A stretch of 64,000 nucleotides of DNA from Chrysophaeum taylorii (Eukaryota > Sar > Pelagophyceae > Pelagomonadales > Pelagomonadaceae). The stretch is taken from the NCBI GenBank assembly GCA_029834535.1, contig JAQMWT010000191.1, forward strand, positions 28,171 through 92,170, given 5' to 3'. The position numbers were made by a program, and so were the translations under genes. The notes below the pieces were generated by a model. The model was not told the DNA's origin and searched no databases. It saw nothing but the letters and a program-made list of their open reading frames with translations. Within the stretch, counting starts at the first letter, position 1, and each line of letters begins with the position of its first letter. Positions 6,017-53,902 of this stretch are shown here, in pieces.

Positions 6017-6342
6017 GCCTGTAGACGAGGGGCGCCGAAAGGTGGGTCGGCGGAGAGTGATCATCAAGCTTGTCGCCATGCGACGAGGAGACCGCGATGT
6101 GACTGACAACCAACTCGTCGATAACCTTCCGTCTGCGCCCCGCGACCATCCCCCGTCCCACTGCGAACGTTCCGGCTGCCAACCGGCCCGCCCGGATCCT
6201 CCATTGTCGGCCAACAACCGTAACCCCTGTTTTCGGACAAAACTTCCCGTTGCGCGACAACGACAAACCGTTGTTTTTTTTGTGAACAACAACGTCATAC
6301 GATTTGTGTGGTGAGAATCCACCAATCATCATCGACCAATCA

Positions 6343-8871
6343 ATGGGGACGACGACGACGACGACGACGACGACGAAGAAGACCTTGGGGACGCTGTTGG
6401 TACGCGGCGCGACGTGCGGGGTGCTGGTGTATCTCGGGGCGGTGGGTCACCGGTGGTTCTCCGAGTCGTCGTACGTGAGCGAACCGAATTTTGGAAAATG
6501 GAAAACATGTTCTGGATACACGAAGAAGGAGTTTGTCGGGGTAGCGATGATGAGCTTCGGGTGGCCGTTCGCGTGGGCGATGGGGGTGAGCTTTTCGATC
6601 GGTGTGAGCAAGGTGGATGTGTCCGAAGCGGGAAAAGCGGTGGTCTTCGCGGGGCTCGTGGCGCTGTGCGTCGCGGCAGCGGTCAGGAGCTTCGCGGACG
6701 GGCGGGACGTGCTGCGGTGCGGCGTCGTCGCGTGCTACAAGGTGAACGGAACTCACGCGAAACCTGCGTACAAGGTGGTCGTGGGCATGATCGCCTTCTT
6801 CGCGTCCGTCGCGGCGACCGTCTTGGAGCTCCGGCTCCTGGCGGGGTGCGCGGGGAGGGTCCTTTTTTACCGCGACGAACGATCGTCGCGGGACGCGCCA
6901 CTCGCGCGACCGTTGCTGCGTTGCCGCGACGACGAAGAAGAAGGAAGCTCGAACTCGTCTTCCGTGGTTGCTGCTGCTGAAGTCGTCGACAAAAGAAAGA
7001 ATACGCCGCGGCGCGTCTTGGCGGGCAGCTTTGGGCTTATCGCGACGCTCGTCTGCCTCTTGTTCTTATCCGCGACGCTCCCGAACAGCTTCACCGAATT
7101 CAATAGTGCCGGCATCAAGTCGTGGGCCGCCACCCACCGCCAAACTGGGGACATGCCGGAGGGCGAGGGGAAGGACCGCGCGCTTCTCCGGACGTTGTAT
7201 TTGCGCGTCAACAACGAGTTAGTCTTGAAGTTTTTTCCCGACGTTTGCATATTCTACGGCTTTCTCGCGGCTCTCGCGCTCCTGGGAACGGCCGCGCGTC
7301 TGTTTCCCGAGTTTGGACGCGCCCTGAACTACCGCTTCCCGATCCCGGGCCCCTTCGAAATCAAGCTGACCTTCCCTCCAGCGACGGCAGCGTCGTCGCG
7401 AGCGTTCTGCCTCGCCGTGGGCAGGCCGCGGCGGGGCGACGTCAAGGCACTCCCCTCCAGGGAAATGACGATATTTTCCGTTGGTGGGGGGGTCTCGAGT
7501 CTCGGCGCTACCGTCGTGCTGGAGCTGTGGGCGGTCATGATGGCCCTCGAAGCCCGGTACTGGTTCATCGACCATCGATACGACCATTCGAATGGTCAGA
7601 CGAACGCCGAGATCCGCGCTCGAGGCTTCGGCCAGCTCGCCAACGCGTGTCTCGGGCTCTTGCTGTTGCCAGTCTCGAAGCACTCGGCGCTCACCCAAGT
7701 GTTTGGAATCGCCTGGGAGCAAGCGCTCTGGGCGCACGTGTGGCTCGGATACGCAACGCTCGTTCTCTTCGTCGCTCACGCGGTCTCGTGGTGGACCGTC
7801 TACCATCAACAGCATATCTTTCCCAACGACGTCCTCGAGGTCCCGGGGTACTTCCCGTTGAACGGCTTCCCAAAGAGCCGCGGGCGGTGCTCGGACAACT
7901 GGACGATCCCCCTCGCGACGATCGCGGTGTTTGTCGCGCTCTTCGCGATGGGCGTTCTCGCTCATTTTCAAGTCCGTCGCGCCCGCTTCGAGGTCTTCTA
8001 CTACGCCCATCACTGGTTTCTCGCGATCTACGCTGCCGCTCTCTGGCACGCCGCGAGCTGCTGGTACTTTGTTCTCGGTGGCCTCACCCACTACGTCTTC
8101 GACCACGCCTTCCGCACGCGCAACGCCGCCGCTCGCTGGCGAGTGGCGTCGTGCGAACCCGGTCCGGCAAACACGACGCACCTCGAACTCTCTTCCGGCG
8201 AAGGCGCCGTCTTTCCGTACGAGGCTGGCCAGTACGCGTTCCTCTGCATCCACGAGATTTCCCCGCTTCAGTGGCACCCGTTCACCCTCAGCGCCGCGCC
8301 TTCAGACGCCCGCAGACTCGACCGCCTCGCGTTCGACGTCAAGGCCGTCGGAAACTTCACCAAAACGCTCCGGGAACTTGCGTCCACCGACCTCACCGTA
8401 GCCGTCGACGGCCCGCACGGCGCGCCCCCCGACCTCTCGCGCCACGACGCCATCCTCCTCGTCGCCGGCGGCATTGGGATCACGCCAGTCCACAGCATCT
8501 TCCGCGAGCTCCGGATCCGGGGCTGCTCGAGCGCCGTCACCCTGGTCTGGATCCTCCGCACCGTCGAGCCCCTCGCCCTCTTCCAGACCTCCTTCGTGCG
8601 CCTCCCGCCGAACTTCACCGTCCGCCTCTTCGTCACCGCGGACGACCCGCCCGCCCTCTCCAACGCCGCCGCCACCACCACCATCACCCTTGAGACGGGC
8701 CGTCGCCCCGACGTCGGCGACCTCGTCGACGCATTCGCCCAAGACTCCAAGACCCACCTCCGCGCGGCTCCCGCCGTCTTCGTCTGCGGCCCCAAGTCCA
8801 TGGTGTCCGCCGCGAGCGACGCGGCCATCTCGAACAACCTCCACTTCCACGCCGAGATCTTCGAGTTCTAA
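6343..8871 (+). CDS. NADPH oxidase / ferric reductase family transmembrane oxidoreductase
   Basis: An 842-residue membrane flavocytochrome. The core has the bis-haem pattern His-x13-His (about 465/479, HVWLGYATLVLFVAH) and a second His-x12-His pair in YYAHHWFLAIYAAALWHA. The FAD site is H-P-F-T-L-S (about 645-650), the nicotinamide loop is G-G-I-G-I-T-P (about 709), and the C-terminus has C-G-P-K-S-M (about 814). It should move electrons from cytosolic NADPH across a membrane to oxygen or ferric iron. About five hydrophobic segments precede the haem core, making the N-terminus longer than in a minimal FRE or NOX. No EF-hands are seen. I start at the second ATG (6343), opening MGTTTTTTTTTKK; an in-frame ATG at 6304 would add 13 residues. 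Superoxide production versus metal reduction cannot be decided. Confidence 0.85.
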   Translation: MGTTTTTTTTTKKTLGTLLVRGATCGVLVYLGAVGHRWFSESSYVSEPNFGKWKTCSGYTKKEFVGVAMMSFGWPFAWAMGVSFSIGVSKVDVSEAGKAVVFAGLVALCVAAAVRSFADGRDVLRCGVVACYKVNGTHAKPAYKVVVGMIAFFASVAATVLELRLLAGCAGRVLFYRDERSSRDAPLARPLLRCRDDEEEGSSNSSSVVAAAEVVDKRKNTPRRVLAGSFGLIATLVCLLFLSATLPNSFTEFNSAGIKSWAATHRQTGDMPEGEGKDRALLRTLYLRVNNELVLKFFPDVCIFYGFLAALALLGTAARLFPEFGRALNYRFPIPGPFEIKLTFPPATAASSRAFCLAVGRPRRGDVKALPSREMTIFSVGGGVSSLGATVVLELWAVMMALEARYWFIDHRYDHSNGQTNAEIRARGFGQLANACLGLLLLPVSKHSALTQVFGIAWEQALWAHVWLGYATLVLFVAHAVSWWTVYHQQHIFPNDVLEVPGYFPLNGFPKSRGRCSDNWTIPLATIAVFVALFAMGVLAHFQVRRARFEVFYYAHHWFLAIYAAALWHAASCWYFVLGGLTHYVFDHAFRTRNAAARWRVASCEPGPANTTHLELSSGEGAVFPYEAGQYAFLCIHEISPLQWHPFTLSAAPSDARRLDRLAFDVKAVGNFTKTLRELASTDLTVAVDGPHGAPPDLSRHDAILLVAGGIGITPVHSIFRELRIRGCSSAVTLVWILRTVEPLALFQTSFVRLPPNFTVRLFVTADDPPALSNAAATTTITLETGRRPDVGDLVDAFAQDSKTHLRAAPAVFVCGPKSMVSAASDAAISNNLHFHAEIFEF

Positions 8872-15626: not shown

Positions 15627-15951
15627 TATGGCGGCACAGAAAAACCACTCCCGACCCCCTGGTGACAAAAGGGGTACTCACCGACTCGTCCTAGACCTCA
15701 CTGAACGAGGAAAACACGGACTCGGGGTCGGATATGCTCGCCACACACCTTGCTCACGCTCACCAAGCCTCTCAACAAGATGGAGAGATGGTATATGAAA
15801 GCAAGAATGCTACAAGAATACTGCAAGAATGCTTCTCACAAGAGAGAGAGGTATGATGTCACTAGGAAGCGAGGGGAAGGCGTCCCGTTGAACGGGTATT
15901 AAGCCTCGAGAAAGGAGGGTAAAGCCTTAACGGTCAGGAGTTGCCGCCACA
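15627..15951 (-). repeat. 3' LTR of the gypsy element
   Basis: On the element strand it runs from TGTGGCGGCAACTCC to GTGCCGCCATA. The ends form an imperfect terminal inverted repeat (TGTGGCGGCA/TGCCGCCATA). It aligns with 24235-24563 over its whole length; differences cluster in the 100 bp at the element-strand 5' end. The first 220 bp on the plus strand differ at only about five positions. Confidence 0.92.
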
Positions 15952-16038
15952 GGACTCCCCTGGTGAGAATACGAGCTGCCCTCAGCGAGTCCGGCGAGAA
16001 GCACGAGCCTTGGCTGAATGAGCGTCTCGGGAACGTAT

Positions 16039-18348
16039 CTACTTGTAGACACGTTCAACGACAGGTTCGGGAGCGCGTCCACTACGCAAAGTGAACGTAG
16101 GAATCAACACATCGATCTCATGCGGGGCGAAGTCGGTGACACAAGGAGTGGTACTGTTGTTGACCTTGGTCTTGTCGGTGAAGCTGCGACCGTCCACGTC
16201 CTTGTATTTTGGCTTAAGCTTGCGAGTAGAGAGATGTGAGGTAGGCTTGTAATAAGAAACCTTGTCATGGGGACCAAGATCAGCATAGAAATGCAGAGCG
16301 ACTCGATCATTCACAAAATCATAGGGTTCATAAACTTCAGCGACGTAAATCTTCTTTCGCCAATCGGACCGTTTGTTATTCGGAATCCGAAAGATAACGA
16401 ACTTACCATGCTTGTAATCATCCCGAAAGGTCTCCTTGGGCTTGGGCACAGCTCGATCGACCACTGGAGAAACCATCACAGGGGTGATCTGGCTAACATG
16501 AACACAACGGCGTTCAGGAGGAGAATCAAGAGACTCAATCCTGTAAGTGACCGGGGACAAGCCTTCCAAAATACGAATGGACCGCGCCATTTCGGTCGAA
16601 GCTTGTTCTGAAGAAAAGGGGTGTAGAGCAGAACATGTGAACCTTCTTCATACTCCACATCGACATGGTCCGCATTGTAGGCGAGACGTTGTTTACGAAA
16701 AGCCTTCTCACGAGCTTCGTTCACCGTAGCGGTATAGAACTTCAGCCTCTCGCGAGCCTCTGCCACAACATCGGAGCGAGTTTTCGGCAGGCGGCGGACA
16801 TCAAGATCCATAATCGTGTAATCGGCTGGCAATAAAGGCTGCCGGTTAAGACGAAGCATGAAAGGTGAGATCTGAGTTCCCGGAATAAACTTACGATTGT
16901 AGCAAAAAGCAATGTACTCCGCGAATTCGGGCCATTCCGTGATCTTGCGGTTTTGAAGGCACGCACGGAGGAAAGCCTTGACAAAGCGGTTGACCCTTTC
17001 CGCAGGATTAGCCTGAGCATGATGCGGAATCGTGGTACTATACCGAACATTGAAGAGATGACAAAACTCTTCCATCAACTTGTTGACGACCTCTTTCCCA
17101 TTGTCGGTACGAATCCTCTGAGGTATATAACCTTTGAGTAATATATTCGCGACAAAAGACTCGAGGATTGACTCAGCAGTCTTATGGTGTAGTACGTCAA
17201 GAATCAAGAAATGAGAAAATGGATCAAAAAAGATGATCAGATATGTCTCGGGACCAGCACTGGGCAAAGGTCCGAACAAATCCATACAAAGGACGGCGCA
17301 ATCACCATCATACACCGGTTGCTGAAGCAGACCTGCTCTCTTTGGTTCAGGCGTACGAGCTTTCTTGCACACTATGCAACCAGCAATGTAAGCACCCACC
17401 TCATTAGACATGTGGGGCCACCAAAAATCGTTCAAGTATCGACTGCACTGTACTTTGACGACCCATGTGACCACCATTGAGAGGTGTGCCGTGGTACAAT
17501 CGGATGATGCGCGTCCGTAAAGTTCGGGGTGCGACTATCATCGGGTGCAAGTCGGGTGCGGCACGGTAGAGAACTCCTTTCACCACTTGATAGCGATAAT
17601 TGGCTCCGTACCGACGAAGAGAATGGCCCTGAGCCATGCGATAACGAATGTCCTCGCAAGTAGCATCAGTGATCTGCTCTTTGGCTATCTCTTCCAAAGT
17701 CAAATTATCCGGAATCTTGTCGATGTACTCTTGGTAATCATCGGCATCACGGAAAATACTAGGCTGGGTCTGCAGACGTTGCTTCTGACGTTGTTTCGTA
17801 GCATGAGACGTGACCAATTGCATCGGATCATCGAGGTCTTCTTCTTCTTCCTCCACAGGCAACTCAGTCGTAACAAACGACAGAATGATATGGCACCCAG
17901 GTGAAGGTACTCCTTCATCATCGACAGGGCGAGGAAGTTCTTTGCACACTAGGTACGCTTGGTTCAAGGGTTCACCAAACTCGCCCGTCTCGATGACATG
18001 ATCTGTAGGATTGCGAGAGAGACAGTCAGGGATACTCATTCCCGGCGACTTCCCTGGTTTGTAACCCAATTCAGGATCAAAGTTGGCGAGCCGCATCGCC
18101 CATCGAGCCAACTGCCCAGACGAGTGCTTCGCCTTTCGTAAAAACGTCAAGTTGCGATGATCCGTTTCAAGGATCGTCTTGTGACCTTCGATATAAGAGC
18201 GCAAATGCTCAAGAGACAGAATAATAACTGCCAGCAGCTCTAGCCGGCGAGGCTCATAGTTCCGCATTTCTTTCGGCACAGCTAGGCTCCAATACTCAAT
18301 TACTCGTTCCTCTCGTGTCACCTTGTCGGTTTCGTCCTTGACTTCCAC
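16039..18348 (-). pseudogene. RNase H and integrase part of gypsy pol
   Basis: Three overlapping minus-strand frames (18348-17404, 17477-16476, 16590-16039) read as one protein with frameshifts near 17440 and 16560. RNase H shows TDHRNLTFL and LARWAMRLANF. An H-H-C-C zinc-binding unit spans the first junction (YHGTPLNGGH, then CIVCKK). The integrase core has D (CMDLFGPLP), D (RTDNGKE) and E (NPAERVNR). The tail reads KWRGPF followed by a GPY/F-like block, then a basic C-terminal domain of about 150 residues with no chromodomain that I can see. It would insert the cDNA into the genome. The frameshifts make this copy inactive. Confidence 0.88.
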
Positions 18349-19862
18349 GAGCTGAAAAGATACGCGCCCAGACCATCCTTGGAAGCATCCGAGCGGATCT
18401 GAAAAGGAAGATCGTAGTCAGGATGATAAACTCCGCGAGAGTCCACCAAAGCTTCGATGATCGTGTCCCATGCCTTTTGGCACTCAGGCGTCCACTCAAA
18501 CTTAACGCCTTCAAGACACAATCGCCTAAGCGGCTCCACAATCTTCGAATAATTCTTCACATATCGGCGGCAATAGTTGCTCATGCCAATGAAAGATCGA
18601 ATCTGGGTCTTCGGGGACGTATTAGGCAACGTACCGGGGCATCTGCTGCAACGCTTCTAACGTCTTGGGATTCGGCTTCAAGCCTTCCGGAGTCGAAATG
18701 TGTCCCAGAAACTCGATTTCATCCTTGAGGAGGTGGAACTTCGAAGTTCGTCCACTATATCCTCGCTGCGCTAAATGGCACAACACTTCAATCAAAACTT
18801 GTAAATGTCGATGGAGTTCATCCGATCCCATCATAATATCGTCGACAAACGCGACCAAGTCCTTATACATCCATGTGGACAAATCGCTAGCCATCTGCTT
18901 ACAAAAGAGAGCTCCTGCTGTTTTTACTCCTAGAGGCAAGCGCAAGAAACTATGGGCTCCAAGTGGACTAACCATCGTAACGGCGTCCTGAGCGGCGGCG
19001 TCCAAACGTAGGTTATGATAACCCCATCGAATATCAATGCACGTCCGCCAACGGCGCATGGCAAGAAAAGCCAAAGCATCATCTTGACGAATATTCGGCC
19101 AACTGTCATTGACCAGCTGATCATTGAGCTGACGCAAGTCAACTGCAGCACGAAAAGCATTCGACGTCCCGGCCTCTGCTCCCTTCTTAGGCAGCATCAG
19201 TACAGGGAATCCCCACGGAGAGTTCGCCGGTCGGATGACTCCATCGCGACACCACTCGGTGATCTGCTTTCTGAGACACTCGAGCTTTGCTGGCGTAACC
19301 TATAAGGCGTCATCTTGATCGGTCGTGGGTTTGCGTCTTTAAACCGTAGAGAAACCGGTGGCGAGTCCACGGGTCTCATAATCGGATCAAAAAAAGCCCA
19401 CGCGTATTGCACGCAGTGGCTCAACATCGTCTTCGCATCATCATCCAGATGCGTGTTGTCGGGAATTCCCAGATCTCGAACAACCTTTTCGACTTCTTCC
19501 TTCGTCGGAATTACGATTTTCATCGCATCATTGTCCTTGACGTGCTCGGGAGTCTGCGGTAACGGTACACCGTCCGCATCGCGCGGTGCATCCTTCCATG
19601 GCACATCGAACTTTTCTTCGTATTTGAACCTCACCTCAGGGTGGCTCTTATTGATCTTTTCACCTTTGACGCGCACATTCGGCTTGCTCCTTACTTTCGG
19701 CTCCTGTTCAGGTTCAGGATGGGGCGGAACGTCCTTTTTTGATTGTCGGGGGGACCCAGCAGAAAAAGCATAAGCCGTCCCCGGCGCATCTGTTGGAAGC
19801 GGAAGCATAGGGACTTCTGGCGATTCCCATTTAGTGGGATCCTGGAGATCATCTTTTGACAC
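18318..19862 (-). pseudogene. Reverse transcriptase of the gypsy element
   Basis: Frames 19862-19197, then 19305-18622, then 18629-18318 join through two single-base shifts (near 19305 and 18635). Motifs in order: KMTPYRL entry, WGFPVLMLPKK, R-A-A-V-D-L-R-Q-L-N (catalytic Asp), FLRLPLGVKTAG, and the active site FVDDIMMG. Then FLGHISTPEGL and a connection block with RSFIGMSNYCRRYV. This is the standard order for Ty3/gypsy RT. An N-terminal linker of about 150 residues rich in Pro/Lys/Glu precedes it and follows the methyltransferase frame. Confidence 0.9.
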
Positions 19863-19943
19863 CCACTTAACGACACGAGTACGCGTATTTACAGCGGAAT
19901 CTGTACGTGACGAAAGGTGGTGTCGGAGATTCGCAAATACTGC

Positions 19944-21038
19944 TCAAAGGATCGATCTTTCGGGCTCAACGCGGTCGGCAGGACTTCGCCACTTTGGCGG
20001 AAACCTCTGGTCACGGAGTTGTGCAGATCGACTGCTAAAATCGCAAGAGTGTCCGGAGGGAACGACAGACGCTAAATGTTTGAACGAATCTGTCTTAGAC
20101 AAGCTAGCCCAATCATGGTCCACCGGCATCGTGAGCAACTCGGCCGTCATCTCGAGAGTCAAAGGCTGAGTGTCCGAGCGATGCGGTCCCAATCGAAGAG
20201 GAACTCGCGTAACGGTGTAAGCCGTATCTGTTGCTTCTCGGGACGAGCCGAGATTATTCAGCTGGAGCAGGTGGCGTTCATGAGCATAACCTAAAGCTGC
20301 AGCAAATTCTTGTTGCATGTTCACTCATGTCTTCGGAGCCTCTTGCAAGTGCAGTGGGTGACTGGAAACCAACAATCGCACGCGAGAGCTCATCAGAGTG
20401 GGCGTGATATCATGTAAATTGACGACGTACACGTAAGGGTGTAAACGCGCTATATAACAAATGATGGACGCCTCCTGTTCAATCAGCCACATCATGAAGC
20501 CAGCCATTATGCACAGCTTCATCGTCCAGTTAGTGGCCGTAACACCCCTGCCAACATCTCTGGATGTCAAGTTGCAGAGTGCTGAATGAACGCAGGGTGG
20601 AGACGCTATACACATCGACGATGACCATTCCGCTTCAGGCAAATAAGCCTTGATCAATCGGAGGGTCGAGTCATATCGTCCGCAGAGCGTGTGCTGAACC
20701 ACAGGTATCTTCGGAAAATTCTTCTGATGAACCTTGTTGGCAGCTGTTGAAGAGTCAAGAGCAAGGACGACTCGAAACGACGTCCCGCACAACTCGTTCG
20801 CTCGTTGCAGTCCTAAAGTACTTCCTCCGGCGCCGCTAAAGAGCATCACAACCTTGCGATACGTGATCGGCACCCAGTGGACCTTTTCAAACCTTCGGCG
20901 AATCTCGCCTTCTGTAACTTCTCGGCATTTCTTTTCCTCCTCGTCAGTTCGTCGGTCGAAATCGTCGTTACCGAGCGATTCTTGACGAGAATTCTTCTTC
21001 TTATCGGCAGAAGGAGACGCCTTCTGCACTGAGCTCAA
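19944..21038 (-). pseudogene. Cytosine-C5 DNA methyltransferase domain within the retrotransposon
   Basis: One reading frame of about 364 codons interrupted by a single TGA (at 20325-20327). Motif I is VVMLFSGAGGSTLGLQRA (residues about 63-80), the S-adenosylmethionine site. Motif II is ALDSSTAANKVHQKNF. Motif IV is SPPCVHS with the catalytic Cys at about 149. A motif VIII-like TPTLMSSRVRLLVSS follows. After the TGA, LTLEMTAELL and FKHLASVVPSGHS resemble motifs IX-X (normally ...QLGNAVP). The ENV of motif VI is not visible and the spacing there is short, suggesting a deletion or strong divergence. Known from the family: cytosine methylases have been found in LTR elements of dinoflagellates and a charophyte alga. 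Inference: the element once methylated its own or host DNA. Confidence 0.85.
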
Positions 21039-22564
21039 AGCATCGGTTCGGGAGCCGCATCGCCTTGAGTCAGATGGCTTGCGACCGAAACAGTGAATGA
21101 TAGGTTAGCCTTGTTAGATTCGGCTTCACCATCCTTCGTTAAATCGTCGACCGTCTCAGCATTCAGCTCGTCATCAAAACGAACAATATCGCCCAAAGCG
21201 AGAACTTCACCTTGAGTAATCACGGTCGGCACATCCTGGGTAGAGGATATCGCCACTCGAGCTGCGAACTTATCATGATCCTCAGGAGAAGAACACATTC
21301 CATCGACTACCCCGAGTTGCTCGTACCCAGAGGACGTAGCAACGAAAACATGCCCGGATTCCATGGGCTCTGAAAGAGCGACTGGCACGCAGTAGGTGCG
21401 CCCAGGCTCGACCTTCATCGTGCGCGCAGCATAGGCTATCACTTCATAGGCATCGCTGTTCGAACTTTGAGAAGGCGTAACTGGAGGGACTCCCCAAGTC
21501 GTCGAAGCTCCCGCTCGTTTCGGCGGTGGACGCTGGAGGTCTTCAGTCTTGCACAAGCGAGCGTAGACTCGGTTCTCAGCTGTGCTCAGGCTCTTTTGCA
21601 TCGCATGGTGCTGTTGCCCATAAACCTGAACTACCACGGGGTTGCGCTCGTCATAAGTTGTTCTGAACGTCAAAATCGGAGAATCGACTCGTCGATCCTG
21701 CACCTTTAACTTCTTGCGCCGATAAGCGACTTGTGTGCGGAGAAACGCAATGCGATTTCGCGGGTAGTCCACTATGGCTCCCAACACCCGAATATCGCGC
21801 GCTGCCAGCAAAAATATATGATTAGTATCGGCAACAATAGCAACAACTGGAACGGCCACGTCGTCCGCAAGCGCAATCCGCAATGCGACCCATTTGTGGA
21901 TAGTCGTCTTATTCAATCCTGACCCGTACAGGGTGCGCTCGACTGGAAGATCGCCCCGGTCAAGGATGATACTATCCTTTGCCAGTTTTTCGACCATCCC
22001 ACGACAAATATAGGAGACATCAGCTATTCCATCCACGCCTAAAGTCGTTGCGAACTCCGGCCCGTCTCGTCGTCTATAAATATGACCAACTATAAACGTA
22101 AGTGTACCAGGGTCTAGACAACCGATGGTGATAAGGCTTTGCTCCATTTCCCCCCCATCGCTCGGCGAAAGTGCAGTGTGATGACATCGTATCTCCGGTT
22201 TCGCATCGCCCTGCATCTGCATCGTCACCGCTGCCATATCTGGCGTTCCACATCTCGCCTCTGAATCTATATTGACGCTCGCCGCTTCGGGTGCTTCCTC
22301 ATTCCCCAGTTTCGCTGACAACAAACTCTGACACTTCTCAATCGGAGGCACATATATTTCCTCCTTTATCTCTTCTGGCAATCGTCGTTTCTCGTCCATC
22401 AAATCGGACATTCCCGTCAACTTCTCCTCCATCGGCGCCGCTGTGGTCTGCTCTGCTGCGACCAAAACTGTATCGGCTAAAACATCGGCTAAAACGGTCT
22501 CAACATCGGCTAAAACGGTCTCGGGGGGCCCCGTAGGAAAAGAAGACGTCGGCCCCGACGTCAA
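21035..22564 (-). pseudogene. Aspartic protease (retropepsin-like) region of the gypsy element
   Basis: A single open frame of about 509 codons. The protease core shows TLGVDGIADVSYI (about 175-187) where D-S/T-G-A-D-V-S is expected. About 70 residues later comes FLLAARDIRVLGAIVDYPRN (compare LLG.DfL...ga.idy). The N-terminal half is low-complexity Thr/Val/Ala/Asp, with a TVLAD repeat. The C-terminal half has unrecognised beta-rich sequence. The frame starts without a clear ATG of its own, as expected for a polyprotein. Its stop overlaps the methyltransferase frame by 4 nt in the -1 register. Confidence 0.7.
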
Positions 22565-22798
22565 CTCAGAAGGTCAAACATCATCATCGTGAACTGCCCT
22601 GCAAGACATGCACATTGACGAATGGGGGGGACACTGGAACCTGCGGCATGGGTTCGTCGGTCTCCGAATCTGAGTCTTCCCAGTAGTACGGAGAATCCAA
22701 AGTAGCATCTGATATTGCTTCCACATACGATGTAGAAGGCCACCGAACGATCCGAGCGTTGGTGGTATTTTGCTCCTGTTGCAAACGATGGCTGCTCG

Positions 22799-23798
22799 TC
22801 ACAGCGACATCGGCAACATCATCGGAGACTCGGGCGGGGCGCGCCGTCGGGTAAAAGACAACTCCCGACGATGGCGGCGCGTCGCATAAAAAGATTGGAA
22901 CGCAAAATTTCCGCTCGAATGTCCCGAACTATCCTGATATCGGCCTCCGTCATATTCGTCATCGTGATGTCGATGACGTCGGCGCCGGCGCGAATTGCGA
23001 CTATAGCTCCGGCTATGGCGGCGACGGCGGGGACTCGGGCTTGTTTGAGGAGTATTGGCCTTTCGATCAGGGCTCTTGCTTCGATGTCGGCGCGACGATC
23101 GTCTAGAAGGTGATCGTCCGTCTCGCTGTCGTGTAGAAGACGACTTGCTATCCTTGATGCCTCTGACCTCGCTCACCATGGTCGCCATTGTGGTTCCAAG
23201 ATCGGTGAGGGCCGGTTGAATTTCATTAGAAGGCTCCGATCCGCGCGTGGCGTTCGCATGAGATGCATCATCAGGCTTCTCCCAATCGGAGCGCGATATG
23301 GGTTGCTTCTTCTGCTTACCAATACGCTTCCACATCGCACAGTAATAACGATCCGGATCGCGGTTGCAAACCACGCGATTTCCGTGTTCATCTTCATCAT
23401 GGGTGGTCCAGAAGAACCCACAGTGCGGGCACGTTCTCTTGCCCCACAAAAAATGATCTCGTAAGATCAGCGGATCCGTATTCCCAAACGGTTTATCCGC
23501 ATCTTGCTGGCAAAACGCTCAGCTAATCGTTCATTTTCGCGACGTCTCTGCTCGAGGTCTTCACGAAAAGTCGACATCGGGCTGCAGATCTGCGCCCAAT
23601 AGTAACACGCTCGCCACGGTCCGGAGTCGTTGGACTCAACGGCGAAGAAATGGCAGTATCCGGAGGCACGTCAGGGGGCACGTCAGCAACGTCGACTGCC
23701 TCGGCCTCTCTTGATTCACCTTCCTCGCGGCCTATCTCAGGGGCGGCGGGAAGAACTGGAGGAGATTCTTCCTCACGCACGTCTGCGCTTATATCCAT
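22799..23798 (-). pseudogene. Gag-like region of the gypsy element
   Basis: Two minus-strand frames (23798-23523 and 23449-22799), linked through a third. Between them is a charged coiled-coil-like stretch (EDLEQRRRENERLAERF). Then comes a putative zinc site with Cys/His spacing C-P-H-C ... C ... Y-Y-C, and finally a long Arg/Ser and Arg/His-rich basic tail that could bind RNA. No canonical CCHC knuckle is visible. Gag is shorter and more basic than usual, and may be partly deleted. Confidence 0.55.
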
Positions 23799-24234
23799 AC
23801 TGCATCAAAATATCGATCAGGAACCTCGAAATACGTGCGGATCCGATCACTCGAAGTCATGCACGTTGATTCCAACAACGCTATCTGTCGCTGTAAAAAC
23901 AGCACTCGCGGAATTCCAATCCGCTGGCAATTCAAAAATGCCCGTGGGTAGCGATCCCACTCGCCAACAGCTTCCGCCGTTCAGCTATACCAAAATCAAG
24001 TCCCGGGAGAATGCGCTGCGATTTCCAACTCGCACGCGTGTTCGTCGTCACTCGGATTACACGAACACAAACAACGTTCGCGTATATTTATTCTCAACGC
24101 AAACCTGTCCACTGGAACTCCGCGTGCTTGATCAGGGCACACGTACAAACCCGGACCACGTAATAACAATACGTACGGCAGCACCCGCTCGTCGGCGACC
24201 GATGTGGTCGCACGATCTCATATCCTCCACCACG

Positions 24235-24563
24235 TATGGCGGCACAGAAAAACCACTCCCGACCCCCGGGTGACAAAGGGGGTACTCACCGACTCGTCCT
24301 AGACCTCACTGAACGAGGAAAACACGGACTCGGGGTCGGACATGCTCGCCACACACCTTGCTCACGCTCACCAAGCCTCTCAACAAGATGGAGAGATGGT
24401 ATATGATAGCAAGAATGCTACAAGAATGCTGCAAGAATGCTTCTCACAAGAGAGAGAGGTATGATGATGTCACTAGGAAAAGGTAGGGAAAAGCGTCCCG
24501 TTGAACGGGTATTGAGCTTTAAGAAAGGAGGGTAAATTTTAACGGTCAGGAGTTGCCACCACA
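24235..24563 (-). repeat. 5' LTR of the gypsy element
   Basis: The partner of 15627-15951. On the element strand it begins TGTGGTGGCAACTCC and ends CCGCCATA. It should hold the element promoter. The polyadenylation signal is not obvious. Confidence 0.92.
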
Positions 24564-25805: not shown

Positions 25806-26753
25806 CTACGACGACGACGAGGCCGGGAATACGTCGGGGCTCGAGTCTCGCACCGGGGGATCGGAGGACGGGGCCGTCGACCCCTGGTGTGTTGGTATAT
25901 GTCGTCGTCGGGAGTCGATTCCATTGCGGGAGGGGTGGAAAGAGGAGGTGAGGGCGTGGCGGATATTGTCGGCGGCCTTCAAGGCGAAGGAGAGCGCGCG
26001 GGCGGTGACGTCGAGGGGGGCCGTCGCTGCGCAGGTATGGGCGAGGCGGGCGCGGACGTGGCGGTCGTGCAGACAGAGAAGGCTGGCAAAGGCGAGGCCG
26101 AGCGGGGTAAACGCGGGGGCGAAAGTATCGTGGCGGCGGTACAAGCCGCGTTCCACCGCCAAGGTCCCGCAACAGACGCCGAGAAAAAAAGATAAAAAGA
26201 CGGCGGAGGAGTCCTTGAGACTCTCGAGGGTCTCGGCATCCCGGCGACCGAGTCCGAAGAGGTCGAAAAGCGCCGCGGCCGTCCGCTGGATGTGACCGGT
26301 GACCATATTCACGACCGTGCCGTCGACGTCGTTGGCGAGCGCGCACACGATCCCGAGAATGGTGCTCAAGAGCAAGACGTGCCACCGGTCAGATGCCGGA
26401 AACGCAAAGTCTAAAGCGTCTTGCGCGAGCGCGAGCGCGAAAACGACGGGCGAGACGGCCGTCGCAGCACCGGGGCCGCGGCGCGCGTCGACGAACCGGA
26501 ACGTCGTCTGGCCGACGCAAAAGGCCCCGATCACCGACGCGTAAAACCCCGCGTCTGAAAAGCGTCGCTCGGCCAGAGCCTGTGCCCAATAGATCGAGTT
26601 TCCCGTCAGCATCGTTCCAAAGGTCGTATACTGCAGCAGACACAGCACGTTCGACCACCCGATCGTGAAGGCGAGGCCATTCACGAGCACCCGCTTCTTC
26701 GACGGCGCGGATATCGATGAGGTGCGAATCGACCAAGTTCGGTTCGAGTCCAT
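25806..26753 (-). CDS. DUF1275 (YoaK-type) multi-span membrane protein
   Basis: A 315-residue protein with about six hydrophobic segments. The first (VNGLAFTIGWSNVLCLLQY) ends in TTFGTMLTGNSIYWA, the characteristic DUF1275 signature (small residues, then M-T-G-N). A second half-repeat has VNMVTGHIQRTAAALFD, echoing the same motif. The last 70 residues are disordered, rich in His/Ser/Pro. The family is widespread in bacteria and present in eukaryotic algae and fungi; its transport role is unproven. The ATG at 26753 is 105 bp from the start of the divergent zinc-motif gene. Confidence 0.75.
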   Translation of the reverse strand: MDSNRTWSIRTSSISAPSKKRVLVNGLAFTIGWSNVLCLLQYTTFGTMLTGNSIYWAQALAERRFSDAGFYASVIGAFCVGQTTFRFVDARRGPGAATAVSPVVFALALAQDALDFAFPASDRWHVLLLSTILGIVCALANDVDGTVVNMVTGHIQRTAAALFDLFGLGRRDAETLESLKDSSAVFLSFFLGVCCGTLAVERGLYRRHDTFAPAFTPLGLAFASLLCLHDRHVRARLAHTCAATAPLDVTARALSFALKAADNIRHALTSSFHPSRNGIDSRRRHIPTHQGSTAPSSDPPVRDSSPDVFPASSSS

Positions 26754-26858
26754 CGCTTCGCAAGGGTTCTGGAACCCCCAGACTTTTTGTCGTCACCGCT
26801 TACCCTGCGTCAAAATTTTTGAGGTGGACATCACGCGCAACCCGACGACCTCTGCTCG

Positions 26859-27658: not shown

Positions 27659-30584
27659 ATGACGCGCGTGTACGACTGGGCGCTGAGGCGCGGTTTTTCC
27701 GCGTACGCGACAGACGTCGCCGAGGCCGCCGACTCGATGTCGGATCTTTTTTCCGCCACCTCGGACGATCTCGACGCGCTCACGTGCGTCGTACTCGTGG
27801 TTCCCTTGATGTCTGTCTGTCTTTCCCCGCAGGCAAGACTGGAAGAATCTGACGCGGAAGCGATTCCTCAGAGAGCTCAAGGAAATTTCCGCGTCGTCCT
27901 TCGAGATGGCCGACGCTGTCACGCAGACCCCCGGCGTTACGGCCCACGTCGAGCAGGTCCGGGCGCCCTCCGCGCCGGACGCCGCGACGCGAGTTGCCGC
28001 GCCGACCGCTAACGCCAAAGCCCAAGCCCAGGTGCGCGCGGAACTGACGCGGAAGCGATTCCTCAGAGAGCTCAAGGAAATTTCCGCGTCGTCCTTCGAG
28101 ATGGCCGACGCTGTCACGCAGACCCCGGCGTTACGGCCCACGTCGAGCAGGTCCGGGCGCCCTCCGCGCCGGACGCCGCGACGCGAGTTGCCGCGCCGAC
28201 CGCTAACGCCAAAGCCCAAGCCCAGGTGCGCGCGGAACTGACGCGGAAGCGATTCCTCAGAGAGCTCAAGGAAATTTCCGCGTCGTCCTTCGAGATGGCC
28301 GACGCTGTCACGCAGACCCCCGGCGTTACGGCCCACGTCGAGCAGGTCCGGGCGCCCTCCGCGCCGGACGCCGCGACGCGAGTTGCCGCGCCGACCGCTA
28401 ACGCCAAAGCCCAAGCCCAGGTGCGCGCGGAACTCGCGCACGCCGAGACTCCATTCGAGCGCGTTGCGGTTGTGGCCGCGGAGACGCGGTTTGCTGCTAC
28501 TGAGACAGCTCACGCCGAGACACAAATGATGGGTGTCGAGGTGGCGGTGGCCGGGACGCAAGCGGCGGCGTTAATGATTGACGCCGAGTCGCAGTTTGAA
28601 GAAGAACAGCCTACGGCGGTTGAGGAGGTCGCGGTGGATGCGACGCAAGCTAGTGTTCCCACAGCTCACGCGGCGACTCAAGCGGCGGTGAGTGTCGTCG
28701 AGGTGGCGGTGGCCGGGACGCGAGCGGCCGCGTTGATGCTTGACGCCGAGTCGCAGTTTGAAGAAGAACAGCCTACGGCGGTTGAGGAGGTCGCGGTGGA
28801 TGCGACGCAAGCTAGTGTTCCCACAGCTCACGCGGCGACTCAAGCGGCGGTGAGTGTCGTCGAGGTGGCGGTGGCCGGGACGCGAGCGGCCGCGTTGATG
28901 CTTGACGCCGAGTCGCAGTTTGAAGAAGAACAGCCTGCGGCGGTTGAGGAGGTCGCGGTGGATGCGACGCAAGCTAGTGTTCCCACAGCTCACGCCGAGA
29001 CACAAATGATGGGTGTCGAGGTGGCGGTGGCCGGGACGCAAGCGGCCGCGTTGATGATTGACGCCGAGGCGCAGTTTGAAGAAGAACAGCCTGCGGCGGT
29101 CGAGGAGGTCGCGGCGGATACGACTCAAGCTGGGACCGACACTGCTCAAGCCGAAACTCGCGCCGGGATGGTCGTGGAGACCACAGATGCCGAGATACAA
29201 GTGGACGGAGCTCCGACGACTAGCGCCGAGGCGCTCCCGTCCGCGCACCCCGAGACCCAAGTCGAGCCTATTGTCGTCGAGCCCTCGGCGACGTCGGAGC
29301 AAGTTGGTGCCGACGCGGTTCACCCAGAAACACAGATCGGAATGGTTGCAGCACTTGGCAAGCAGCAAGGTGCCATACCAACCGCCGAGGCGCGCGCGGA
29401 AACTGTGTTTGAGAGATTAGCTAAAGTCGTTGGAACGCGCGCGAGCTCGCCAATAACCACTCGCGAGAAGCAGCCTATCGCGGCCGGAGCAGCGACGAGC
29501 GTCGAGCCCGGTATGGCGGAGACTGCAGCGACGGCCGGCGAAATAAAAAGCGGCACGATCCGTGCCGACGCGCGAAATGTTGTCGGGGCGGACGAGACCC
29601 GAGATGCCGAGAGGCCCCGAGCAGCGCGAGCCGAGACCTTGTTAGAGGTGCGCGAATCTGTCGTTCGTCGTAACTAGGGTCCAGGTGGCGCCGAAACTGG
29701 GTGGAACGCAGGCCGACGCGGTTACGGCGGTGACCGCGCCGAGCAGCGCGGCCGCGGCAGCCCTCGACGACGCTCGGGCCGCCGGCGACGCGCCGCTCGA
29801 CCGCGTCGAGTCAGCTTCGGAGTCTCGAGGATCTCACGAACGGATCCGCGGTAACAAGCGAGCCGATTTTCTCGCGCGCATGGAACGCGACGGGTGGGAG
29901 TTCAGAAAGGTCCCGCGCGCGCACAATCGAAAAATCGCCGACTTGTACTACGTCAAGGGCGACGTCGCGCTCAAGTCGCTGGCGAGCGTCGCGAAGCAGC
30001 ACTACCCAGAAATGTCCGAGGAGCTCCTAGTTTCGCGCACGCAGAAGAAGCGCGAGTTCTCTTATTCTGACGCGTTTGCTCAGATCATCGCCGAGGGCGA
30101 TGGCCGGAAGAGGAGCAAGCCGCGCCGTTTCAATCCCGGAACCGCGACCAACACGAAAAGTTGGACCGACGACGAGGTCGCGGCGGTGACGCCGGGAGAG
30201 AAGAAAGAGCCGAAGAGACAGCGCTCCGAGCCCCCGAAGGCGTCTCGCGAGCGCGCGGCGGAGATGGCCAAGAAGCAGCGCGTCAAGAAGGAGCCCGGCG
30301 TTGTTGTTGTCGCCGCGGCCAAGGAGGACCCCGACCTCGTCCGGCTCAAAAAGCTGTATTTGCACAAGAAGTTCACGGACGCCGAGTGGGGGTCAGACTA
30401 CCTCGTTTGCGAAGTGGTCTTCTCGCAGCAGTTCGAGGCCTGGTGTGCCGCCGCTCGCCGCTACGACCGCGAGCGCAACGCCCCTCCCGACGACGGCCGA
30501 TACCGGTACTACTCTCTCGGCAACGACGCGGACTTGATGGAAATGGATCGGATGATCCAGCTCTACGCCGACGCCTTGAGATGA
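27659..30584 (+). CDS. Long repeat-rich Ala/Glu/Thr protein (at least three exons, one frame interruption)
   Basis: Exons: 27659-27783, 27833-29647 and 29685-30584. Introns are 27784-27832 (49 nt, GTGCGT...CCGCAG) and 29648-29684 (37 nt, GTGCGC...GTCCAG); both keep phase. The N-terminus is MTRVYDWALRRGFSAYATD. Then come three 65-residue repeats (TRKRFLRELKEISASSFEMA...), followed by four 52-54-residue acidic repeats (DAESQFEEEQ...VAVDATQAS). The C-terminus is basic with DGWEFRKVPRAHNRKIADLY, a GW...Y-Y-V-K module that may bind peptides or DNA, then Lys/Arg-rich nuclear-type sequence. A one-base loss in a C run near 28123 of the second 65-residue unit breaks the frame. Function unknown; a chromatin or scaffold role is a guess. 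Confidence 0.6.
27851..28434 (+). repeat. Three 195-bp tandem coding repeats
   Basis: Units start at 27851, 28046 and 28240, nearly identical. The middle unit is 194 bp because one C is missing (acccc against accccc). Such identity implies recent duplication or assembly stacking. Confidence 0.85.
28580..29130 (+). repeat. Four acidic coding repeats of 156-162 bp
   Basis: The marker GACGCCGAG followed by GCAGTTTGAAGAAGAACAGCC starts at 28580, 28742, 28904 and 29060 (spacings 162, 162, 156). Copies two and three are almost identical; one and four share an HAETQMMG variant upstream. All stay in frame. Confidence 0.85.
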
Positions 30585-31559
30585 GCATACTCATCGGTTT
30601 GTTAAAAAACCTGCGACTCTGATCGTGGTTGGCGAGCAGGGACTTCCGTTTGTCGCCGCCGAGAGGCAGCAGCAGCAGCAGCAGCAGCAGGTGAATGTCA
30701 CACCATGTGATCTACTACTAAACACCGACCGACCGACCGCCGTGGACCCCTCCCGTCGCTGGAGTGGAGTTCGTGCTTGGTGAGCACCGGCGGCGGTGTA
30801 CGATGGCCGTCAGCCAGGGATGCTGGCTAGTTCATATTATGGATGATGGTTGTTTCGCTTGATGGTAAGGTCGATGCTTTCTTTTTTTCAGAGAAGGGAT
30901 ATATATAAGAAGGCTCGCGTTTTATTTGTTTGTTTCGAGGGTGTGATGTACAAAGCCCCGCGTCGCTGACGTCGCCGCCCGCCGATCAACAACGACCTTG
31001 ACTGCGACGAGGGGAGGCGATGTGTTGAGATGTGCCGGGGTTTAGATAGAGCGGCGACGACCGTCGGATTTTTTTCATTATAAATTCTCGTGTCGTCGTC
31101 GCTGGTGTGTGGGTTTTTTTTTGCTGTCGTCGTGGTTTCTTATTAAGAGAGCTGTCGTTGTCTCTTTTCTTTGTGATTCTTCCTTCTAATGCGTTTTTTT
31201 GGGATCAGCCTGCGGGTCCCATAGAACTAATAGTTAAAGTTAAAGCACAAAACAAAACGGGGTAAGTAATTAATTAATTAATTAATTAATTAATGACTCC
31301 ACATATTATTACGTGGTTGATCCGTTAGTCGGTCCGTTGTGAAGTGCAATATCAGGTTAGAGTACAGCAAAGTTGCCTGTATTTCCAAAAGGGAGTTAAA
31401 GAATGCATAAAAAATACTGGAGTAGAACGAAAACCGTCGTGTTGAGAGAAATTCCGGAGTTATGCAACAACAAGACCAAGAGTGTATTTTTTTGTGTACA
31501 GAAATATAATGTGAGCGCCGCGCGTTTGCCACCACCACCAGCACCACCACCACAAGTGG
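30585..31559. other. Intergenic, 975 bp
   Basis: No gene seen. Contents: CAG run 30668-30689; GATATATATAAG (30898-30909), a good TATA box; and a TTAA tetranucleotide run at 31267-31294. CAC triplets (31530-31553) sit directly before the phosphatase ATG. A non-coding transcript from the TATA box is possible but unproven. Confidence 0.4.
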
Positions 31560-32702
31560 ATGTGGGTGGTTGTTCTGGCGGCGGCCGCGGGCCAGTCTTG
31601 CGCGGAGCGAGTTCGCATCGGGTTTTCGAGCTGCGTTAACCAGAACCGAGCGTCGGCTGCGCTCGAGGCCGTCGGGCGCGAAGCGTCGCTGGAAGCCTTC
31701 GTGTTTCTTGGTGACAACGGATACCACGACACGCCGTCGTGCGGTATTCCCTGGGCCATCGAGGCCTGCAGTGCGTGGGAATGGTTGGGGGAAGTGGGTC
31801 GGCTCTGGGTGCGGTTGTGGCGTCGGGCGTGGCGGGGCGCGGCCGCCGAGGACTCGTTACGACGGGCCGACGACTATCGGGACTTGACGTCGCGCCACGT
31901 CGGACCCCTCCGACGCATGCTGCCGTCGACCGCCTTTCTGGCGACCTGGGACGACCACGACTTGGGCGCGAACGACGCCGATTCGACGTATCCCTTCCTG
32001 AGCGACGCCCTCTCGGCCTTCGTGCGTTTTTGGCGACGCCCGGATATGGAACTCGAATATTCCGGAGGAGGAGCGAGCGCCGCAAGCACAGTCTACAAGG
32101 CGTATCGGCTCAAAGGCGATATTCAGGTCTTGCTGCTCGATGTGCGATCGTATCGCACGCCCTTGACGCGCGCGTTCGGCTCGGCGTGGAAACTCGTCGA
32201 GTTGGCCAAGCTCGCGAGGCTACGCGCCGCCGACGCGATCTGCGAGCCGCGCGAGTACGAGCCGAGCGAGGGCACCATGCTCGGGGTGGGGCAGTGGCAA
32301 TGGCTCGAGGAGAGGCTTGCCGAACCAGCGCGCGTCCGCGTCGTGGTCAGTTCTATTCAAGTCTTGAGGCCAGACGACGGCGCGGAGAGCTGGGCTAACA
32401 TGCCGCGCGAGAAAGAACGGTTATTAGCCGCTCTCGAGGGAGCTTCGGGACAAGTGATCATTCTCTCGGGCGACGTCCACTACGGCGAGGTCTCTGTACT
32501 TGGGTCTCTCACCGAGGTCACCGCCTCGGGACTGACCGAGACCTGGCCGTGCGTCCACTACAATCCCCTCGCCGTCGACGGCTCCCTCGTTCGAACGCAC
32601 AACTACGGCATCGCCGACATCGATTTCGCAAACAACGCCACCACCCTCTCGCTCCACAACGCCCGCGGCAACATGACGTTCCGCCTCCAACTCGAGCTCT
32701 AG
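31560..32702 (+). CDS. PhoD-family metallophosphatase, secreted
   Basis: A 380-residue protein with a signal peptide (MWVVVLAAAAGQSCA). Metal-binding motifs are in PhoD order: GFSSCVNQN near 21, FLGDNGY (50-55), ATWDDHDLGAND (128-139) and SGDVHYGE (303-310). PhoD enzymes are Ca/Fe-dependent alkaline phosphatases or phosphodiesterases acting outside the cytoplasm. In algae they help recover phosphate from organic esters. The length is near that of short eukaryotic PhoD-like members. Convergent with the channel gene, 17 bp between stops. Confidence 0.85.
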   Translation: MWVVVLAAAAGQSCAERVRIGFSSCVNQNRASAALEAVGREASLEAFVFLGDNGYHDTPSCGIPWAIEACSAWEWLGEVGRLWVRLWRRAWRGAAAEDSLRRADDYRDLTSRHVGPLRRMLPSTAFLATWDDHDLGANDADSTYPFLSDALSAFVRFWRRPDMELEYSGGGASAASTVYKAYRLKGDIQVLLLDVRSYRTPLTRAFGSAWKLVELAKLARLRAADAICEPREYEPSEGTMLGVGQWQWLEERLAEPARVRVVVSSIQVLRPDDGAESWANMPREKERLLAALEGASGQVIILSGDVHYGEVSVLGSLTEVTASGLTETWPCVHYNPLAVDGSLVRTHNYGIADIDFANNATTLSLHNARGNMTFRLQLEL

Positions 32703-32719: not shown

Positions 32720-33511
32720 TTAAAGAACGATTTTCGGGAGGCGATCGGTCCCGGCGGCGCGCGCCGAGTCTACTTCGGGGGAAGAGCAGCCCATCGAGGC
32801 GATAATCGCGTCGACGCGCGGTTTCATGATGGCCTTGGAGGAGGAAGATGATGACCGCGCGGCGGCGGCGGCCTTGGTGCGCTCGGCGATGCGCTGCTTG
32901 GCTTTGTAGGCAAGGATCTGCTCGTAGTCGGTCGCGGAGACGCGGCCGCGTTTGATCATCGTGGCCTCGATCTCGCGCTCGAGGAGACGACAGTCGGTCT
33001 TAAACCTTGCCTTGAGAGCGACGTAGGCGGCGCGGTTAAGGACGTGGAGCCTGACGCAGACGACGGCCTCGACGGCGGTCGCTCGTCGAACGTGGAACAA
33101 CATCCCTAGCTCGCCGACGAGGTCGCCCTCGTACAAAATGTAGAGCAAGGTCGTGTTTCCTCCTCCTCCTCCTCCTCCTCCTTCGGAAGAGCCTTCGTCC
33201 TTGCTCTTTTTTCGTTGGAGCACGGCGAGGCGGCCGTTGGTGCCGAGAAACCCCATCCACGCGTTGACCTCGCCCGCCTTGAGGACGCGATCCCCGGGGA
33301 GGTAGACGGTGGTGAAGAGGCAAAGCACGAGTTCCTCGATGAGATCGGGCTGGCACAGCACGAAGATTGGATTTTGCTTGAGCATTTCGGAGAAGAGGTG
33401 CATCTTGACTTCGGTCCGCAGGTTAGGGCTCAGCTCGTCGAGGAAGCTCGTTCTTTCGGTTCGCGCGGAAAACGCGGCTTTTTTTTCTTCTTCGAGGACC
33501 AGCTTTGTGGT

Positions 33512-33543
<32 letters not shown>

Positions 33544-35227
33544 CGTCGTCGTCGTCGTGTAAGGGCGTCTCCTGGAGGGCGTTGGTCGCGCCCGCGAGCG
33601 AGATGCCCGTCATTTGCTCGAGCTTCCACATCATGTGGAAGTAATGGCAGACGCGATCTCGGAGCGACTTTGGCAGGTGCATGCGTCGCATTCGCGAGGC
33701 AACATTCATAACTTTCTGGCGGTGCTCTGTCACTTCCGCATCGAGACTCGAAAGCAGGACGGCGACGGCACCGAAGACCGTCGCTTGGAGGCACGCGCCG
33801 TAGATCGACATGCAGACGGCGAGGACCGTCTCGACGTTACTCAACGGATTGACCGCGCCCAACCCCAAGATGAAGGAGGCCGCGATGTAGACGACTTTCA
33901 AATAACGCGTCGCGAGGCCCACGTGACGCCATTCGACGACGACGTTGTTGCTGTAGATTTCGACGCATCGCACGCAGTCGGACGTCGACGCGCGACCCCC
34001 GCATACGGTCTCGCACGCCGTCGGGACGCTCGCCGGGACGTCGAGGCGGTACTCCCGCGCGAAGCTCGGCGACACGGCTGCGTAGAAGCAGCACGCGCTC
34101 CAGTGGAGGTTGAGGGCGATGAAGGCCAGCAGCTGCGAGAGCCGGAGTACGACCGACCCGTACGCGTGTTGTTCGGCGCTCCTCCGAAACAGCTTGCCGC
34201 CGCCGCGGACGACGCGGAGCAACCGCACGACCTTCAACAGCGTCGCCGCGCGCCCTCCTTCCCGATACGTTGTGAAATCCTCCGAGGCGAGGGCCTTCGC
34301 GATCTGTTCTCCCGGAAGGGTCGTGATGAGATCGAGAGGAAACCACCGCGACGTTACGTAATGCCTCGCTATCAGTTTCGAGTCGCGAATTTCCCGTTCG
34401 CCCAAATAATACGTCGTGCGAAAGTTCACGAAAATGTCCGCGACAAACACGACGTAAACCGCGCGCTCGCACGCGCGGAACCCGTGGTCGTTCCACCCCT
34501 GGTCCTGGAAACTCAGCGCAAACGGCGTCGCGACGGCTTCCCACAAAATCGCGCACGCCAAGACGACGTCCCACGAGTTGCGCTCGTTCGAATTCGCGCG
34601 CAGCTGCATGGAACAGGATCGTTTCCGTTTCGAGTTATCGCCATGCTCCTTGAGCAATCGCCGGCACGACTCTCCCAGCAAATGCTCGCCCTGGAGCTTT
34701 ATCATCGCCGTCTCGTCGATCGGGGTCGCCGTCGGGTGAACTTGCAATTGCTTGCTGCGGCGAACCCAAAACGCGCCGCGTCGCTTCTGCACCTTCAACG
34801 GCTCATCGTCTACCACCATCTCTGGCACGGGTTCGTCCTCGCCGTCGCCGCCCTCCGACGGGTTCTTATCGGAGAAGAACCCGTCGTCCTCCGATAAGCT
34901 CCGCGAAATCTCGTACTTGTCTTTGCTGCTTCGGATCGACGACCGCTGCGCGTGCTCGCTCGTGTCAGCGATGGACGAAAAAGACGCCCTACGGCTCCCC
35001 ACCACCGACGCCTCGTCGTTGTTGTTGAGCGCTATGAGGCGCTCGAGACGGTCCATCGACGCGCTCATGCCGAGAAGCAACCCCTCGACATGTGACATGC
35101 GAGCACTGATTTCCATCATCAACCTGTCCCCCTGCTGCTGCTCCAGCGGCCACAGTCGGGGAATGCTCAGGCTCGACCTCCGTCGCCTCGGCTCCGCGCT
35201 CGATATCGGCCGCCTCCGCGCCATCAT
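32720..35227 (-). CDS. Cyclic-nucleotide-gated / EAG-like cation channel with atypical pore
   Basis: An 835-residue channel. The disordered N-terminus (1-200) includes a short coiled coil. S1 is about 218-236, S4 about 326-346 (ATLLKVVRLLRVVRGG), S5 about 357-384, pore 440-463, S6 about 466-492 with the C-linker start (LSSLDAEVTEHRQKV). A cyclic-nucleotide-binding fold runs about 610-745, with the phosphate cassette GELGML...RRATAV (705-719). Gly-rich inserts at 563-572 and 683-690 break the C-linker and the binding domain. The filter reads ILGLGAVNP instead of TVGYGD, and the turret has four cysteines (405-421). The family is certain; ion selectivity cannot be predicted. The start ATG at 35227 follows a CAA run. 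Confidence 0.85.
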
Positions 35228-53725: not shown

Positions 53726-53802
53726 GTAGCAATGAACTGAAGCCGAGGAGGTGTCGCCACGAAGTCAAGCGGAGGCTCGACCGTGGAGAACACCTGGTGC
53801 CA

Positions 53803-53863
53803 TGTGAGAACTGAAACTATAATGGGGACGTGGTGCAGGGGGAAGTGTCATAGCTTCCTCACA
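53803..53863 (-). repeat. 5' terminal repeat of the copia element
   Basis: 61 bp from TGTGAG to CTCACA. On the element strand the next bases are TGGCACCAGG, suitable as primer-binding site. It lies 39 bp before the ATG of the GT8 gene, so the element sits in that gene's promoter region. Confidence 0.8.
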
Positions 53864-53902
53864 CACACAACACACCCCCCTCTTAGCAGTCGACATTTCA
53901 AG

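Follow-up and report, generated by a model that had tools for sequence, protein, structure and literature searches.

A Ty3/gypsy retrotransposon family carrying a predicted, very diverged C5-cytosine-methyltransferase domain in an algal genome

The window, that is, the whole stretch of 64,000 nucleotides analyzed here, contains a Ty3/gypsy element of ~8.9 kb (15627-24563, minus strand) in which a C5-cytosine-methyltransferase (DNMT) domain lies between the protease and the reverse transcriptase. All features of the element described below are on the minus strand. Its 5′ LTR (24235..24563, ~329 bp) and 3′ LTR (15627..15951, ~325 bp) were recognized as direct repeats and extended by alignment and by reading of the borders; within slightly narrower bounds, 301 of 317 aligned positions are identical. 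The original prediction described the LTR borders as intact. Both LTRs are present, but no target-site duplication was found when the borders of this copy were read, nor was one seen by eye at a second copy on contig C5 (locus L044). A putative tRNA primer-binding site (TGGTGGAGG..., 24215..24232), read from the sequence, is located 2 nt inside the 5′ LTR, and a similar site adjoins the 5′ LTR of the contig C5 copy. The gag position is occupied by an open frame without a Pfam match (22802..23518). It is followed by an open frame for the protease and a linker (21038..22573), in which a retropepsin-like stretch, VDGIADVSYI (22007-22039), was judged by eye; Pfam returned nothing for this frame at E up to 0.05. 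Downstream of the DNMT domain (19961..20912) are the reverse transcriptase (18625..19299; Pfam RVT_1, E = 2e-14), the RNase H together with the start of the integrase (17407..18656, in two overlapping frames, 18321-18656 and 17407-18417, identified with Pfam), and the integrase itself (16042..17534, in frames 16479-17534 and 16042-16647), in which Pfam finds H2C2, rve and an Integrase_p58_C-like C terminus. The claim that the DNMT is embedded in a gypsy element is supported.

The motifs of the DNMT domain lie where they had been predicted, on the minus strand. We take the motif numbers from our own comparison with the canonical C5 motifs: motif I is FSGAGGSTLGL (20808-20840), motif IV is SPPC (20592-20603), a motif VI-like stretch is WLIEQEA (20469-20489) and motif VIII is SSRVRLLV (20367-20390). 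They are followed by a IX-like block, PLTLEMTAELLTMP (20124-20165), and an X-like block that runs from 20075 downward, with LASVVP at 20058-20075. The domain does not occupy a single frame as first thought, since it is split by a TGA (20325-20327) and by a frameshift near 20058, the latter falling within motif X. The window copy is thus dead, and the Ty3/gypsy family to which it belongs is large and young.

The genome (70.8 Mb in 697 contigs) was searched with the window DNMT piece as the query, and 147 among 978 first-look candidates were scored. There are at least 147 gypsy DNMT matches, 116 of which are free of stops in the matched stretch and 31 of which contain stops; the window copy is counted among the 116, since its match runs only as far as the stop. 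The number of places may be lower than that of matches, since some contigs (C10 and C297) look duplicated. Identity to the window DNMT lies between 74% and 98%; the copies cluster at ~94-98% and at 74-78%, and others fall between these clusters. The search for intact copies, called for at the outset, found one on contig C5, in which gag, protease, DNMT, reverse transcriptase, RNase H and integrase are in one frame of at least 2972 codons (3063 by the genome search). In this copy the DNMT (approximately residues 1343-1640) is located between a protease-like motif and the reverse transcriptase, and RVT_1, RNase H, H2C2 and rve follow in that order. This Pol order within a single frame, together with the LTRs (341 bp, 98.2% identical), places the element in Ty3/gypsy. 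Six copies, on contigs C16, C224, C24, C331, C53 and C565, are ~74% identical to the window copy and each have a single TAG within the DNMT match, which looks like the spread of an already broken lineage. A second open frame of ~200-270 codons, on the strand of the DNMT and overlapping it, is present in four subfamily B copies (L036, L037, L038 and L056).

A one-off insertion of the DNMT would leave family copies lacking it, and such copies were looked for. At least 150 reverse transcriptase matches are present in the genome, and at least 69 are accompanied, at the distance expected, by one of the DNMTs listed. Seven of the other 81 were inspected, and DNMT sequence is present in all seven, although several are broken or rearranged; one has a DNMT at 54% identity and another retains only the last 51 residues. 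The pairing of reverse transcriptase and DNMT, and its presence in all seven inspected copies, therefore indicate that the DNMT belongs to the gypsy family.

We then asked how well the domain matches known C5 enzymes. A profile search was expected to return a cytosine methylase, and PF00145 did match the window copy (E = 1.6e-4), but its 21.7 bits are just below the 22-bit cut-off; the contig C5 copy reaches 18.4 bits against the same cut-off. Sister copies match PHROG DNA methyltransferase families (best E = 2e-8 and 4.6e-7) and TIGR00675 (E = 0.0016 and 0.0015; 18 bits, cut-off 100.65). With one gypsy copy as the query, tblastn against phages (E up to 10) gave four records, three of them annotated, and all three are DNA methyltransferases. 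The plasmid search gave 20 records; among the 10 listed, seven have a cytosine methyltransferase beneath the match, one is unannotated and two have no feature at the match. In a profile-profile comparison, the 11 open gypsy copies match a mixed set of 26 C5 enzymes over motifs I-IV (98.1%, E = 1.2e-13) and again, collinearly but weakly, over IX-X (7.3%); against the phage relatives alone the values are 96.3% (I-IV) and 3.2% (IX-X). The phage-relative profile consists of L047 and 13 of 19 loci, to which the 26-enzyme set adds six phage and four plasmid enzymes, the host DNMT2 and the host DNMT5. Compared singly, the gypsy profile matches the host DNMT2 at 16% and the host DNMT5 at 0.1%. The C-terminal part was examined in a shuffle test of two copies against nine references. 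Subfamily B against the Aphanizomenon phage C5-methyltransferase gave z = 7.9 (0 of 500 shuffles), while 17 of the 18 comparisons fell below z = 3, namely subfamily A against the same phage enzyme (z = 2.7, 7 of 500) and the other 16 at z ≤ 2.03. None of the 11 aligned open copies varies in SPPC, in the Glu at the motif VI position or in the R-x-R of motif VIII; motif I, the catalytic PC, the motif VI Glu and the motif VIII Arg, taken together, are invariant or nearly so. There are also departures: motif VI reads IEQEA rather than ENV, motif X is without Gly-Asn and little sequence separates VI from VIII. The best matches in a PDB sequence search are DNMT2 enzymes and are not significant (E = 0.21 and 0.22), and the AlphaFold models (pLDDT 35 and 30) are unusable. 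In our reading of these sequences, the gypsy domain would be a C5 domain that is complete though very diverged, with a motif VI that retains the Glu and has lost ENV.

The gypsy DNMT is under purifying selection. Alignment and dN/dS were based on 11 of 15 DNMT stretches, L034, L035, L042 and L043 being excluded for breaks. Between groups dN/dS is 0.062 (30 pairs), at a dS of ~2 that is near saturation; within groups it is 0.28 and 0.22 (10 and 15 pairs, respectively). Measured by region against one B copy, dN/dS is 0.054 for the DNMT, 0.029 for the reverse transcriptase, 0.034 for the integrase, 0.113 for the stretch from RNase H to integrase and 0.197 for the protease region. The value of ~0.06 for the DNMT between diverged groups is near those of the reverse transcriptase and integrase.

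A second retrotransposon family, of Ty1/copia type, has its own very diverged DNMT between the protease and the integrase. A direct genome search gave 121 matches, corresponding to ~113 places, because eight pairs are pieces of one copy. A genome search with the Pfam DNMT profile (123 of 474 candidates scored) gave at least 57 matches, the top two being the host genes for DNMT2 and a DNMT5 homolog; 20 of the 55 others were inspected (L009-L028) and all 20 are DNMTs of the copia type. One of them, L023 (3797-9652), has a frame of 1952 codons with the DNMT at 349-475, rve at 1016-1110 (weak, E = 0.006, below its cut-off) and RVT_2 at 1686-1933 (E = 1.6e-38), and the integrase preceding an RVT_2-type reverse transcriptase assigns it to Ty1/copia. 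The copia DNMT follows a DGGAS stretch that looks protease-like by eye, which puts it in the slot that the gypsy DNMT also occupies. The copia DNMT scores 32-34 bits against PF00145 (cut-off 22) in the three frames scanned. Ten stretches from the 20 loci were checked and two with a stop were left out; in the eight aligned copies PCQ, ENV and the motif VIII Arg are kept and motif I is degenerate. Its profile reaches 97.1% over motifs II-VIII against the 26 C5 enzymes and just 59% against the phage relatives alone. The mean dN/dS of the copia DNMT is 0.14 (15 pairs, six copies), and both retrotransposon DNMTs show signs of being kept by selection. A direct comparison of the gypsy and copia DNMT profiles gave no match. 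In a tree of 19 chosen rows, whose alignment misplaces gypsy motifs VI and VIII and copia motif I and is without DNMT1, DNMT3 and DNMT6 references, both DNMTs are on very long branches and a single gypsy plus copia clade, and with it a common origin, is not rejected (p-AU = 0.417). That a second family has a diverged DNMT at this position suggests that elements in this host are generally under pressure to possess such an enzyme. The window also has a copia-type reverse transcriptase (RVT_2, 49575-50564), which shows no tblastn similarity to the DNMT-bearing copia polyprotein at E = 1e-3.

The host has a DNMT2 gene, found by the genome search, and a DNMT5 homolog, whose frame is 2086 codons long. 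The stretch L002:1006-3537 covers 844 of these codons and matches PDB 7r76 (E = 3e-143), an entry labeled Rad8 that we take to be the Cryptococcus Dnmt5. No DNMT1- or DNMT3-like host gene was seen among the 123 scored candidates of the Pfam DNMT search. The host had been called an apparent ochrophyte. Matches to the light-harvesting complex (LHC) family number 84 in the genome, some being pieces of one gene; the best PDB match of one LHC gene is an FCP chain and that of a second is LHCI chains. We read these matches as fitting a red-lineage alga, but they do not separate an ochrophyte from a haptophyte. Around the gypsy element, the window contains host genes for a lipase 3 (578-2215), a ferric reductase-like protein (6286-8868), a DUF1275 protein (25809-26792), a PhoD-like phosphatase (31515-32699), an ion channel (32723-35248) and a GT8 protein (53741-55225). 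It also has tandem repeats at 27849-29170 (spacing 156-195 bp) and 58083-58748 (119-133 bp).

CpG observed/expected is 1.17 in the gypsy element versus 1.29 and 1.30 in its flanks, and in the copia cores it is 0.96-1.08 in 18 of 20 and 1.20 and 1.31 in the other two. Between gypsy copies, CpG transitions are 1.5-fold more frequent than other C/G transitions in group A and less frequent in group B (0.62). The original prediction had also raised the possibility that methylation shielded the element or altered host silencing; in these comparisons there is no clear sign of methylation-driven CpG decay. The elements are below their flanks and hardly below expectation.

Several explanations of the domain were weighed. 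That it is no methyltransferase, and that a linker region happens to contain chance motifs, would agree with the low Pfam score of the window copy and the failed AlphaFold models; against this, the PHROG, phage and plasmid tblastn and profile-profile matches point to methyltransferases, and we regard the explanation as extremely improbable. A captured methyltransferase fragment could instead ride along as a passenger without function, in keeping with the broken window copy, the stops in 31 of 147 matches and the six TAG-bearing copies. The between-group dN/dS of 0.05-0.06 is, however, far below that of the protease region, a DNMT is present in two families and none of the seven sampled reverse transcriptase copies is wholly without one. 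Copy number and dN/dS reject a passenger or a one-off insertion, and as the selection result largely refutes the former, we consider it very unlikely.

Host cells commonly employ enzymes of the DNMT type to silence jumping elements, and DNMT5 is a maintenance enzyme. As to activity, target and benefit, we think it on balance probable that the C5-methyltransferase of the gypsy polyprotein would methylate cDNA or insertion-site chromatin and thereby aid the element, with marks that the host DNMT5 could maintain. The DNMT may be released by the protease, or left joined to the reverse transcriptase, inside the virus-like particle; its substrate would be the cytosines of freshly made cDNA or of the chromatin into which the element inserts. 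New copies modified in this way might pass for host DNA or adopt a chromatin state favorable to the survival of both element and host, and DNMT5 could preserve these marks. Alternatively, rather than methylating DNA, the domain may be retained for a role that is non-catalytic or directed at RNA, such as binding or methylating genomic RNA or the primer tRNA within the particle. The departures in motifs VI and X, the lack of clear CpG decay and the faint, non-significant similarity to DNMT2, a tRNA methylase (PDB E = 0.21, profile 16%), would suit such a role, as would the precedent of the SymbioLINE DNMT, which is reported not to have methylated DNA when tested in yeast and for which RNA has been suggested as the target (de Mendoza et al. 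2018, PMC5890265). This role is possible but not likely, given that the catalytic residues are invariant in the 11 aligned open copies, that selection is near that on the reverse transcriptase and integrase and that the eight aligned copia DNMTs retain PCQ and ENV. Self-restraint, in which self-methylation lowers expression or insertion harm so that carrier lineages persist, is among the options discussed by de Mendoza et al. (PMC5890265) and would fit a host with a DNMT5 homolog. We find it quite unlikely, since the many matches, the small divergence within groups and the 98.2% identical LTRs of the contig C5 copy are unlike strong self-restraint. A broader form of the DNA-methylation reading, which we hold to be doubtful, is that DNMT5 is the sole gene-borne DNA methylase of the host and that two LTR superfamilies, each having captured a methylase into the slot behind the protease, are the main source of de novo 5mC and seed the methylome.

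DNMT-bearing retrotransposons are known from dinoflagellates and one charophyte (PMC5890265). In a later survey these cases are cited, with LTR Copia and DIRS named, and orphan DNMTs are noted in many lineages (PMC12344493); an opinion paper mentions, in general terms, DAM- and DCM-encoding Ty3/gypsy and DIRS elements in stramenopiles among others (PMC6338049). Neither DNMT family was found described in our literature search, outside of which lie preprints and most subscription papers. Protein searches, partly among scored candidates only, revealed no relatives of the gypsy or copia DNMT elsewhere, nor did an IMG/VR scan with two peptide patterns for the gypsy DNMT, which fits the original suggestion of a separate lineage or a new acquisition. 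The C5-methyltransferase of Aphanizomenon phage vB_AphaS-CL131 (Cl131_gp003) and its IMG/VR relatives share with the gypsy DNMT a strong match over I-IV and, collinear with it, a weaker match over IX-X, but the phage enzyme is very distant (a path of ~4.9 changes per column, with VI-VIII unmatched by the profile), and this likeness is no evidence for a phage origin. The SymbioDIRS-Dnmt3 element has a tyrosine recombinase in place of a DDE integrase. Like the families studied here, SymbioDIRS-Dnmt3 and SymbioLINE-Dnmt place many DNMT copies in retrotransposons, and Symbiodinium is said to be without Dnmt1 and Dnmt3 and to have Dnmt5 and Dnmt6; these are DIRS and LINE elements, whereas ours are LTR elements with a DDE integrase (rve in the contig C5 copy) (PMC5890265). 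An orchid Ty3/Gypsy with an m6A RNA demethylase domain likewise has an enzymatic accessory domain in this lineage, but that domain strips a mark from RNA and the enzyme is unrelated to DNMT (PMC9289625). The nearest published case is KnitGypsy-Dnmt3 of Klebsormidium nitens, which also has the DNMT inside the Pol frame (here in the contig C5 copy), several intronless copies and a DNMT under purifying selection (PMC5890265). It differs in its charophyte host, its Dnmt3-class DNMT and its repeats, said to be DIRS-like, as against the ordinary LTRs, red-lineage alga, very diverged DNMT and additional copia-type DNMT family of the present case. The present case adds a further algal lineage, in one genome of which gypsy- and copia-type families each have a DNMT, and this suggests that LTR elements have repeatedly been selected for having a methylase of their own. 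With young copies, long open frames and a DNMT5-bearing host, it becomes testable whether retrotransposon DNMTs start methylation that the host then maintains.
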